DNA from: Micromonospora cathayae
GTDB lineage: Bacteria; Actinomycetota; Actinomycetes; Mycobacteriales; Micromonosporaceae
Assembly (NCBI RefSeq): GCF_028993575.1
Contig: NZ_CP118615.1
Coordinates: 5,857,001 to 5,921,000, forward strand
Length of the DNA stretch: 64,000 bases
Direction: 5' to 3'
In this document: in pieces, positions 1-3,093 of the stretch
Layout of the letters: each line of letters starts with the position of its first letter
Numbering within the stretch: position 1 is the first letter of the stretch
Translations under genes and position numbers: made by a program
The notes under the pieces: model-generated
Database searches by the model: none
What the model saw: only the letters and a program-made list of their open reading frames with translations
Told to the model about the DNA's origin: nothing

Positions 1-571
1 GGTCCCCGCACCCCCGTGACCCGTGCGACCCGTGACCGGGTGGTCCCCGCACCCCCCCTGGCCGGGTCCCCGCGACCCGATCCCCTGACCCCTGACCCCT
101 GATCCGCATCGGTCCTGGATTACGGCCGGGCACATCCGCCGGCCGGTTCCGCCCCACCAGGACGTCAGCACCGGTGGAGCCCCGGAACACCGAACTGGCC
201 TATTCACCACCAACCACTACGGACAGTCCCGACCACCGCCAGTACGCCAGAACCGTTCTTTCTGCCATTCCTCCGCCAGGTCGTCGCGCTGACCGAACGT
301 GCTCAACGGTGGCGGTCGACGACAACCGTCAGTTACGGCATGGAGGGCCGGTCGTACGGTAACCACAGCCCAAGCGGACGCCGGCCCGCCGGTTCCCCTT
401 CGGACGACGACTCCCCGATGTCCGGACGTCAGCAGCCGACCGGGCCGGGGATCCGTTATCAGCCTTTGTCGGATCTCCCGGTGGGCCGTCACTATATATC
501 CGAGATGAGCTGTTTAAGTAGGTGATCTGATTACCTCCGACCGGCAGGGATTCCCTTTTTCCTTTCGCTCC
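1..571. other. Non-coding, C-rich low-complexity region
   Basis: No convincing gene is seen. The first 110 bases are C-rich with short direct repeats: GGTCCCCGCACCCCC occurs at 1-15 and again at 42-56, and CCCTGAC is repeated near 82-104. Open frames here lack ribosome sites and coding character. The 3' part is relatively AT-rich (ACTATATATC at 491-500, TGTTTAAGTA at 511-520) and holds an imperfect palindrome, GGTGATC-T-GATTACC, at 521-535. That makes it the likely upstream control region of the repeat-protein gene at 649. Confidence 0.5.
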
Positions 572-600
572 TTGACATGCTGAAACGATCCCGCCACCCT
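572..600 (+). promoter_or_regulatory. Candidate promoter of the repeat-protein gene
   Basis: A perfect -35 hexamer TTGACA lies at 572-577, with CACCCT 17 nt downstream at 595-600 as a poor -10. Transcription from here would give a leader of about 45 nt. A more AT-rich stretch (TAATTGATAC, about 620-629) could be an alternative -10. Assigned by eye only. Confidence 0.3.
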
Positions 601-648
601 CATGGTCATCGCATTCGCGTAATTGATACGAGTGAGAGGAGAACCTTC

Positions 649-948
649 ATGGCCACCCTGACCCTGGAACGGACGAACGAGGTCGTCGCCGGCGGTGCCG
701 AAGAGGTCGTCGCCCGGTTCGGCGGTGCCGAGGAAGTCGTGGCCTTCGGCGGTGCCGAGGAAGTCATCGCCCGGTTCGGCGGCGCCGAGGAAGTTGTGGC
801 CTTCGGCGGTGCCGAGGAAGTCATCGCCCGGCTCGGCGGCGCCGGAGAGGTTGTGGCCTTCGGCGGTGCCGAAGAAGTCGTGGCCTTCGGCGGTGCCGAG
901 GAGGTCGTCGCCCGGCTCGGCGGTGTCGAGGACGTCGTCGCCGGCTGA
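649..948 (+). CDS. Small protein of nine tandem GGAEEVVA-type repeats, unknown function
   Basis: A 99-residue protein I do not recognise. After a 14-residue head (MATLTLERTNEVVA) the whole chain is nine copies of a 9-10 residue unit, GGAEEV(V/I)A followed by F, RF or RL. The GG pairs fall at residues 15, 25, 34, 44, 53, 63, 72, 81 and 91, so spacings alternate mostly 10/9. The repeats contain no Cys, Ser, Thr, Tyr or Trp, are rich in Glu, Val and Ala, and the net charge is strongly negative. The ATG start is chosen because GAGAGGAGAA sits 7 nt upstream, whereas an in-frame ATG at 577 has no such site and overlaps the candidate promoter. The gene is monocistronic, ending in a strong hairpin shared with the convergent Nramp-like gene. 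The underlying DNA is repetitive, so several frames stay open; the ribosome site and head sequence decide the frame. It could be a self-assembling repeat protein or a multi-core peptide precursor. There is no signal peptide. Confidence 0.7.
   Translation: MATLTLERTNEVVAGGAEEVVARFGGAEEVVAFGGAEEVIARFGGAEEVVAFGGAEEVIARLGGAGEVVAFGGAEEVVAFGGAEEVVARLGGVEDVVAG
691..942 (+). repeat. Coding tandem repeat, 27/30-bp units
   Basis: Nine contiguous 27- or 30-bp units with core GGTGCCGAGGAAGTCGTGGC alternate between ending in TTC and in CGGTTC or CGGCTC. Pairs form a higher-order unit of about 57 bp. There are no spacers, so this is not a CRISPR array. Near-identity at the DNA level suggests recent expansion by slippage or unequal recombination. 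Confidence 0.85.
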
Positions 949-1040
949 AACCCCACGGCCGGGCCGCTGGCCGCCGTCGGGCGGTACGTCGAATCCGACG
1001 TCACCTGACCGGTTCGGGCCCGGCCCGGTGCTTCGCAGTT

Positions 1041-1076
1041 CCGAGCGCCAGCCCGTCGACACGGGCTGGCGCTCGG
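1041..1076. terminator. Bidirectional hairpin terminator
   Basis: A perfect 16-bp stem (CCGAGCGCCAGCCCGT / ACGGGCTGGCGCTCGG) with a CGAC loop lies between the convergent repeat-protein and Nramp-like genes. There is no T-tract, as is common in actinomycetes. Confidence 0.75.
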
Positions 1077-1107
1077 CCTGCCACCGCCCACCGGGGAGCG
1101 GGACGGC

Positions 1108-2535
1108 TCAGCTCAACCAGTCGAGCAGCTTCCCGCCCTGCTGCCAGATGGTGAGGGCGGAGAACACTCCGAACAGCACCACCGCCCACACCAGGGCCGC
1201 CACCCGGTAACCGCGCGGGCGGATCTGCTCCGGCAGCACCCGACGGTTGACCACCAGCAGCAGGATGGCGTAGATGAACATCATCAGTCCGCCGACGCAG
1301 GCCGAGATGACCAGCAGCACCAGCGGTTGGGCGAAGCCGGCCAACAGGATCGCGCAGCCCAGCCCGACCAGGCCCCAGACCAGAGCGAAGTAGATCCGGC
1401 TCTCCGAGACCCGGCGCAGGTACGAGGTGGCGAGCACATCGGCGGCGAGTCGGCTGGTGTAGTCCACGATGCCCATCGCGGCGGCGAACAGCGAGAACGC
1501 CCCGATCATCCAGAACAGGACGCCGAACCAGCCGCCGACCAGCTCCTTGAGCCGTTCCCCCTCCACCGCCAGGAAGTCCACGCTGTTGGCCAGTCCCGGC
1601 TGTCCGTACACGGTGGAGTAGGCCAGCATCGACATCAGCGTGATGGTGACGAAGGAGATCAGCACGAAGGTGACCAGTTGCTCCCGGTTGGCCAGCCGCC
1701 ACCACCCGCGCCACCGACGCAGGTTCTCCTCGGTCGGCTCGAACACGAAGCCCGCCGCGTCCGGTGCCGCCTCCTTGCGGCCGGTGACCGGGCTGACCAG
1801 GCGGGGGACGTACGCGCCCATGCCGAAGCCCTTGTCCCGGATCCAGTTGCTCTGCACCAGGTTCTGGCCGCCGCCGGCTCCGGCGAAGACCAGCGCGGAG
1901 AGCATCAGCGCGAATCCCAACTCGACCGGGAAGTCCGGTGCGGTGACGGTACGGGGCAGTTCCCCCCAGGCGTCGGCGGAGATCGCGAAGAACACCGCCA
2001 CCACCACGAAGAACACCACCAGGCCGACCTTCAGGAACTCCACCCGCTCCAGCGCGGTGTAGACCACCGGGGCCAGGGTCAGCGTCAGCCCGATGGCGAG
2101 CAGCATGCCGACGGCGATCCAGGTGACGTTCCCGCCGCCGAGCAGGTACGTGACCATGGTGGCCGAGCTGGACACCCAGCCGGGCCAGAGGTTGGCGAAG
2201 TACGTCATGACCGCGAAGACCAGCCCCCAGTGCCGCCAGAACCGGGAGAACCCGGTCAGCGCGGTCTCACCGGTCGCCAACGTGTACCGCTCGATCTCCA
2301 TGTTCAGGAACCACTGGGTGATCAGCCCCACCGCGGCGGCCCAGAGGAAGACCAACCCCACCTGCGAGGCGATGTACGGGTAGAGGATGAACTCCCCCGA
2401 CGCCAGGCCGACCCCGGCGGCGATCACCCCCGGGCCGATGACCTTCCAAGTCGACCGGGGCGGTGGGGGCAGGTCCCGGACGGTGACGCCGGGAAGGTGT
2501 CGGGTCGGGAAGCGGTCGGCAGGGGTCTGCGTCAT
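1108..2535 (-). CDS. Nramp-family divalent metal transporter (divergent)
   Basis: An integral membrane protein of 475 residues with about 11 hydrophobic segments, matching the Nramp/NRMT superfamily of proton-coupled divalent cation importers. It begins with a soluble leader of about 30 residues, then KVIGPGVIAAGVGLASGEF as the first helix. The Asp-Pro-Gly-Asn metal-binding signature of classical Nramp helix 1 is absent here, and the region corresponding to helix 6 reads GAGGGQNLVQSNW rather than the usual Met-Pro-His. Mn/Fe transport should therefore not be assumed, and another cation or substrate is possible. An extended loop of about 60 residues near residues 235-290 is rich in charged residues. 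The gene stands alone, convergent with the repeat-protein gene. Confidence 0.75.
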   Translation of the reverse strand: MTQTPADRFPTRHLPGVTVRDLPPPPRSTWKVIGPGVIAAGVGLASGEFILYPYIASQVGLVFLWAAAVGLITQWFLNMEIERYTLATGETALTGFSRFWRHWGLVFAVMTYFANLWPGWVSSSATMVTYLLGGGNVTWIAVGMLLAIGLTLTLAPVVYTALERVEFLKVGLVVFFVVVAVFFAISADAWGELPRTVTAPDFPVELGFALMLSALVFAGAGGGQNLVQSNWIRDKGFGMGAYVPRLVSPVTGRKEAAPDAAGFVFEPTEENLRRWRGWWRLANREQLVTFVLISFVTITLMSMLAYSTVYGQPGLANSVDFLAVEGERLKELVGGWFGVLFWMIGAFSLFAAAMGIVDYTSRLAADVLATSYLRRVSESRIYFALVWGLVGLGCAILLAGFAQPLVLLVISACVGGLMMFIYAILLLVVNRRVLPEQIRPRGYRVAALVWAVVLFGVFSALTIWQQGGKLLDWLS

Positions 2536-2736
2536 CGGAGCCTCCAGGGTGGTGTGGCCCCGGTACCCACGCCGCCGCCGCGCCGAAACGCGCCGATTCG
2601 GGCGGCTCGCGGTCGATGCAGCCCGGCTCCCCCCACCGGTACGGCCGAGGTGCTCCGGCCGCCGCCGCCGGGCAGGCCATCCGCCGCCGGCATTGGCGGG
2701 TGCGCGTCGACGCAGGGTTGCCGGGTCAGGTTCCCG

Positions 2737-3093
2737 TCACACCGGCTGGTCGGCGAAGTAGGTGTACCGCCGCCAGATCTTGTCGTTCCGGAACCTGTGG
2801 AAGTCCGCCCACCTGACGGTCACCAGCTCACCGCTCTTGAGCCGGCCGTCGAGGACCCCGCGGGCGGCTACCCAGTCGTCGTCCGCGAGGATCGACTCCA
2901 CCGAGTGCCGCCCTGCGGCGATTCGCCGATCCGTCAGGTAGAAGCGGATGAGTCCGTCCAGTCCGACAATGGTTTCGGTGCCACCGCGCTCGTACACCAC
3001 GTCGTCGCAGAACATCCGAAAGATCGCGTCGTAGTCGGCGGCGTCGACGAGTTCGTAGTACCGCTGCACCGTGTCGGCGTGGTTCTGCCCCAT
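2737..3093 (-). CDS. SnoaL/NTF2-like family protein
   Basis: A 118-residue cone-shaped alpha+beta fold protein of the SnoaL-like (NTF2) superfamily. It opens MGQNHADTVQRYYELVDAADYD and ends VTVRWADFHRFRNDKIWRRYTYF, the usual helix-then-sheet pattern with a hydrophobic pocket. Members include polyketide cyclases, isomerases and small-ligand binding proteins, and the substrate cannot be read from sequence. The start was chosen at the ATG of MGQNH because the family N-terminus begins there; upstream residues in the same frame are not family-like. It is divergent from the methyltransferase gene, with a long upstream region holding a Crp-type palindrome. Confidence 0.75.
   Translation of the reverse strand: MGQNHADTVQRYYELVDAADYDAIFRMFCDDVVYERGGTETIVGLDGLIRFYLTDRRIAAGRHSVESILADDDWVAARGVLDGRLKSGELVTVRWADFHRFRNDKIWRRYTYFADQPV

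Follow-up and report, generated by a model that had tools for sequence, protein, structure and literature searches.

A nine-unit repeat peptide of Micromonospora cathayae and two shorter relatives sharing its upstream region

RTX nonapeptides, which form beta-rolls, follow the consensus GGxGxDxUx, and beta-helix repeats of the AIDA-I/TibA type are 19 residues long. Both invite comparison with the gene described here, which encodes a 99-residue repeat peptide at positions 649 to 948 of a 64,000-nucleotide stretch of Micromonospora cathayae DNA (the window; G000:C1:5857001-5921000, within a single-contig 7.2-Mb genome). The repeats of CsgA and FapC are imperfect, are predicted to form a beta-helix, carry conserved Ser, Gln and Asn, measure 19 to 23 and about 34 residues, and vary in number in FapC, according to the part of the source available (PMC9268375). 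The precursors of the thiovarsolin network range from nonrepeating to five repeats over five clusters, and the Streptomyces precursor VarA has a predicted leader and is accompanied by genes for YcaO and TfuA proteins, to judge from the available excerpt (PMC6511847).

The gene lies on the plus strand, ends with a TGA stop at 946 to 948 and specifies a 14-residue start followed by the repeats. A first-pass annotation, made from the letters of the window, had its coordinates, strand, length and count of nine units exactly. The same annotation described near-perfect copies of GGAEEVVA, and five of the nine are indeed exact; the other four are variants (GGAEEVIA twice, GGAGEVVA and GGVEDVVA). The alternation of junctions that it reported is strict for units 1 to 6 and broken afterwards, the eight internal junctions reading RF, F, RF, F, RL, F, F and RL, with Arg at four. 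The product lacks C, H, K, P, Q, S, W and Y, and Thr, which had also been listed as missing, occurs at residues 3, 5 and 9. It would weigh 9.7 kDa intact and is strongly acidic (19 acidic versus 5 basic residues). No signal peptide was evident by eye, and thus we infer a cytosolic location. Tandem Repeats Finder assigned the array a period of 57, 4.4 copies and a score of 325, the top of 12 rows in the window, and period-57 self-similarity was 0.82 in the array versus at best 0.49 elsewhere (nonoverlapping 253-base stretches across the 64 kb). Moreover, the most frequent 5-mer of the protein occurs 7 times versus a maximum of 3 in 2000 residue shuffles. Because the period is 57, expansion of the array probably went partly by 19-residue pairs; units 3 and 5 match each other at 24 of 24 bases.

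Two relatives were found by DNA search with the flanks included, one in genome G064 (contig C3, locus L016) and one in G032 (contig C1, locus L017). From these comparisons we conclude that the 99-residue gene is one of three found members of a repeat-peptide family within a single genus. The products of G064 and G032, MAILTLARAKVTAGGVEDVAFGGVEDVAFGGVEDVAAS and MATYKFIGGVEDVVSYRGGVEDIVAG, are 38 residues with three units and 26 residues with two, and neither found a family in NCBIfam at E<=1. All three members share the consensus unit GG(V/A)E(D/E)V, head to tail, and in each the final unit ends at the C terminus; the number of units (2, 3 or 9) and their spacing (8, 9 or 10) vary while the unit itself persists. 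The 19-residue period is shown by neither relative. The N termini of G000 and G064 are alike (MATLTLERT and MAILTLARA), and G032 departs from them with MATYKFI, leaving no leader shared across the three. Arg had been suggested as a general processing point, but the units of G064 are joined without Arg and G032 carries YR in place of RF, and the suggestion is not supported. Beyond the coding frame, the three genomes have in common about 195 bp of upstream DNA, TTGACA-17-CAYYCT, AGAGGAGAA, the ATG, the stop codon and a 3' hairpin, with 133 of 189 ungapped columns identical in all three across 453 to 648 and 82 of 121 across 949 to 1076. An alternative in-frame ATG at 577 would give 123 residues; the start at 649 is preferred because G064 has an in-frame stop directly 5' of its ATG and because of the placement of the ribosome site.

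Codon-level comparison supports the conclusion that 649 to 948 is a protein-coding gene rather than repeat noise. Among the nine units, the proportions of nonsynonymous (pN) and synonymous (pS) differences in the plus coding frame are 0.067 and 0.321, and pairwise differences number 89 at third codon positions versus 14 and 16 at positions 1 and 2. pN exceeds pS in both other sense frames and in two of the three antisense frames. Coding status is supported by the low pN/pS of the units and by the retention of start codon, ribosome site, stop codon and frame in both relatives, which agrees with the earlier call of a real gene; conservation of the frame in relatives had been proposed as a check, and the gene passed it in G064 and G032. 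The third antisense frame shares the same wobble positions, and its pN/pS (0.0625/0.357) is indistinguishable from that of the plus frame. Moreover, the corresponding frame in G064 stays open over its units. Nevertheless, it seems extremely unlikely that the antisense open reading frame (ORF) at 514 to 1062 (minus strand, 182 residues) is the true gene and the plus frame its shadow: the plus-frame ribosome site, ATG and stop are kept across the three genomes, the counterpart minus frame of G032 has a stop at the units' entry side (by eye), and a shared antisense start was not seen among the compared genomes.

The features around the gene are collected in Table 1. The best-kept upstream block, with its facing half-sites, is likely an operator for a regulator. 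The ribosome site proposed in the first-pass annotation is real, and its TTGACA is as well conserved, but a promoter consensus scan listed no promoter at the TTGACA/CACCCT site; the -10 type used for comparison is TANNNT. The "strong terminator" is a very stable hairpin (-42.4 kcal/mol for 1030 to 1085, z -7.8; homologous hairpins z -5.3 in G032 and z -4.1 in G064), but it has no T run and a terminator scan listed none on the plus strand. RNAalifold found no compensatory pair in the upstream region, and thus we make no claim of RNA structure there. Rfam gave no match in window 1 to 3000.

Table 1. Positions of features in the window, with their conservation in the two relatives
Feature	Position	Strand	Remarks
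Best-kept noncoding upstream block, candidate operator	453..516	+	pairwise identity among G000, G064 and G032 of 53, 55 and 56 in 63 bases
Facing half-sites CAGCNNNTNTCGGAT	460-474 and 498-512	+ and complement	second one degenerate in G064
-35 box TTGACA	572..577	+	identical in all three genomes
-10-like hexamer CACCCT	595..600	+	17-nt spacer; CACTCT / CATTCT in relatives; weak TANNNT-type match
Ribosome-binding site AGAGGAGAA	635..643	+	identical in all three genomes
Repeat-peptide gene, 99 aa	649..948	+	start and stop codons align with G064 and G032
Nine-unit array GG(A/V)(E/G)(E/D)V(V/I)A	691..945	+	unit spacing 10, 9, 10, 9, 10, 9, 9, 10, 9 residues; super-period 57 bp (19 residues)
3' hairpin, 16-bp stem, without T run	1041..1076	+	probable transcript end / border with convergent Nramp gene

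The family seems to be both new and rare. A whole-element DNA search of the genus returned G064 at E 3e-49 and G032 at E 3e-36, the next at 4e-9 among the matches listed; all 160 genus genomes matched at E<=0.01, those listed nearly all through short GC-rich stretches, and only G064 and G032 were accepted, the other rows being judged from the listing. The upstream region alone as a DNA query matched 3 of 354 genomes of the taxonomic family at E<=1e-5 (window genome included), and R1, a sequence-only model built from the upstream regions of those three, found the same three of 354 at E<1e-50. Six weaker R1 matches in the taxonomic family (E 0.003 to 0.046) were all read, and the repeat unit is in none of them. 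Across a class sample of 394 genomes R1 scored strongly for its own genome only, with 28 others at E 0.003 to 0.1 known by score alone.

Protein searches were less productive. The 99-residue query found no relative in a 5.8-billion-protein collection (scoring the 8000 candidates with the most words in common, E<=0.001), where the window's own protein is likewise unlisted, and the 40-residue G064 reference found none there among 38 candidates (E<=10). A genome_contigs protein scan by exact unit words gave 595 stretches matching the unit pattern, 0 of them confirmed, and 29 stretches in viral contigs were likewise not confirmed as relatives; four matches to a genome_contigs DNA pattern, in unrelated uncultured bacteria and judged by title, are regarded as chance. 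A literature search for the unit strings GGVEDV and GGAEEVV had no match. At the protein level 13 of 160 genus genomes matched at E<=0.001, including the window's own; the other 12 were aligned and rejected, ten as low-complexity repeats of other types (such as GGAEPTVSL, RTX-like GGxGDD and GGSGRVARL) and two without an alignment better than E 0.3. At E<=0.1 the P0001 protein search of the taxonomic family matched 14 of 354 genomes. Two of these, G000 and G064, hold true members; the remaining 12 held 13 matches, which were rejected by alignment and, at three loci, by ORF list as well. The known G032 member escaped this search, and so further short members may have been overlooked. We note that GGAEPTVSL-type repeats of 8 to 9 residues occur inside longer open frames at three loci of the same genus (L002, L004 and L011, in G115, G119 and G144). 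An unrelated 8-residue repeat, FGPLRDVA five times followed by two variants, lies at L053:1480-1700 (G255), where the antisense frame is open too, and adjoins the end of an ORF that by eye looks acyl-CoA dehydrogenase-like.

Resemblance to described families is partial. The 99-residue protein matched no Pfam or NCBIfam family over cut-off; weak or sub-cut-off matches were to Pfam HAAS (E 0.0011), NCBIfam carphisopro (0.015) and four PHROGs (0.012 to 0.065). The statement that the pattern fits no known protein or precursor family was thus borne out within the searches made (protein collection, genome_contigs, Pfam, NCBIfam and PHROGs). Like the RTX nonapeptide, the unit can be 9 residues long and opens with GG, with acidic and hydrophobic positions, but spacings of 8 and 10 also occur; the RTX nonapeptide itself is absent, with 0 matches to GGxGxDx(hydrophobic) in 99 residues, and Pfam reported no RTX family at E<=1. 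The 19-residue super-period recalls AIDA-I/TibA, as does a weak phmmer match to 4q1q (E 2e-4), but an unrelated chain outscored 4q1q, the relatives lack the period, and the match is probably compositional. An AIDA/TibA autotransporter was rejected: the 99 residues hold no C-terminal beta-barrel translocator and gave no autotransporter Pfam match at E<=1. Bactofilin gave no Pfam match at E<=1, the fold comparison resting on a low-confidence model. Imperfect repeats of variable number and predicted beta structure are likenesses to CsgA/FapC, whose repeats, as far as the available part of the source describes them, are longer (PMC9268375); the Ser/Gln/Asn ladder repeats of curli and Fap functional amyloids are lacking here, Gln and Ser being absent. 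VarA, in the excerpt available, is a small actinobacterial precursor whose core repeat number, like the unit number here, differs between species (PMC6511847), but YcaO and TfuA were not seen among the neighbor ORFs scanned here, and the units are unrelated by eye.

The surroundings of the element are shared in part. G000 has the order pectate-lyase-like beta-helix gene (minus strand; NCBIfam and Pfam matches, both under cut-off), element and convergent Nramp gene (NCBIfam Nramp_1, 2.9e-165; unreported by Pfam). G032 has the element, an M14 carboxypeptidase gene and an Nramp gene whose protein is 95% identical to the window's, and the neighbors in G064 differ from both. The M14 zinc carboxypeptidase of G032 lies in a 1.8-kb stretch (G032:C1:4982736-4984560) between element and Nramp that is absent at window 1077 to 1085. 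Similarity between G000 and G032 resumes at window 1085, beside the 3' hairpin, and therefore either G000 has lost the stretch or G032 has acquired it. Close Nramp matches (E<=1e-100) came from three of 101 genus genomes drawn (G000, G087 and G156; 88 to 89% identical); G032 is absent from them and so was probably outside the draw. No part of window 1 to 1116 aligns beside the Nramp genes of G087 and G156. By DNA of the rpoB region, G000 and G032 pair at 97.2% and G064 is more distant (about 93 to 96%). Contrary to that grouping, the element's noncoding parts are most alike between G032 and G064, and the last unit shows the opposite trend (29 of 30 bases alike in G000-G032 versus 25 of 30 in G032-G064). 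With G064 as the outgroup, private changes in the noncoding parts number 47 in G000 versus 13 in G032 (p 1e-5); the rpoB region has 44 and 58 such changes, Nramp has 32 and 35 with G087 as the outgroup, and the aligned ORF columns have 5 and 12. The three sequences fit either faster change in the flanks of the G000 copy or movement of copies between lineages.

The peptide might act in one of several ways. We tentatively favor, as possible rather than probable, a cytosolic beta-strand peptide working through repeat-driven beta assembly (stacking) or multivalent binding. Each unit would form a single short beta strand, EVVA(R)F, delimited by a GG turn; the nine-unit chain would stack internally as a small solenoid with two strands per 19 residues, the two- and three-unit versions would stack between chains, and copy number would determine size or avidity. 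The conserved operator-like block makes conditional expression likely. The AlphaFold model of the 99-residue product is all-beta but low in confidence. The chief rival, in our view unlikely yet serious, is a multicore precursor cut into peptides of 8 to 10 residues, perhaps once modified by an enzyme whose gene lies at another place in the genome. It would account for a conserved unit in variable number and spacing with the last unit always at the C terminus, and variable core copy number has a thiovarsolin precedent in the available part of that source (PMC6511847). An M14 carboxypeptidase and an MFS protein are encoded near the G032 copy and a Peptidase_S9/esterase-type protein near the G064 copy. 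However, among 40 neighbor ORFs scanned against Pfam at E<=1e-5 (39 of 84 called plus one more; 7 of 40 without a family), there was no YcaO, radical SAM, ATP-grasp, lanthionine-synthase or C39 protein. Moreover, a repeated core unit is present but a conserved leader or recognition sequence is not, the G000 units lack Cys, Ser, Thr, Lys and Trp, and the Arg junction is not conserved.

An unstructured peptide offering 2 to 9 docking motifs (GGxE(D/E)V) to one partner, as a scaffold, decoy or sponge, seems rather improbable. The modularity of the units and the acidity of the chain suit it, and it needs neither a processing enzyme nor a fixed coil, but no partner was identified and the low-confidence model has strands rather than disorder. 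Noncoding or selfish DNA, whether a mobile cassette or an expanding minisatellite with a chance ORF, is very unlikely. The patchy distribution (3 of 354), the different context in G064 and the faster change in the flanks of the G000 copy would fit it, but selection at the codon level is purifying and the Nramp side is common to G000 and G032. The conserved 20-mer TTATCAGCCTTTGTCGGATC of the best-kept upstream block occurs once per genome in all three (<=3 mismatches), unlike the several copies per genome expected of an insertion sequence or miniature inverted-repeat transposable element; terminal inverted repeats were not seen by eye in the alignment, and window 440 to 660 had no match among plasmids and phages.

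The locus might represent a class of bacterial repeat micropeptide that is new and confined to one lineage, a proposal we regard as doubtful but worth stating. A single GGxE(D/E)V strand-turn module would be the functional unit, with dose changed by module gain or loss (2, 3, 9) under one conserved promoter, and the series would serve repeat-driven assembly or a precursor whose maturation enzyme is encoded elsewhere. An assembling peptide would be a minimal beta-repeat scaffold, and a precursor would be a system resembling ribosomally synthesized and post-translationally modified peptides but with no evident enzyme gene clustered beside it. The three lengths found in nature, all under the same promoter, are a ready series in which to test the effect of repeat number in a very small protein. 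Finally, the relatives were found only via the conserved control region, and protein searches alone would therefore miss the family.

Two observations concern the DNA upstream of the element. Short C-rich direct repeats (GACCCGTG / CCCCGCACCCCC) lie in window 1 to 110, between the divergent beta-helix gene and the repeat-peptide element (by eye). About 3 to 14 kb upstream of window base 1 (L014:563-12154), genes resembling a small biosynthetic cluster encode an AMP-binding ligase, a ketoacyl synthase, a 4HBT thioesterase, a DAO oxidoreductase, a WYL regulator, ornithine cyclodeaminase-like and AlaDH/PNT-like proteins, and a saccharopine dehydrogenase.
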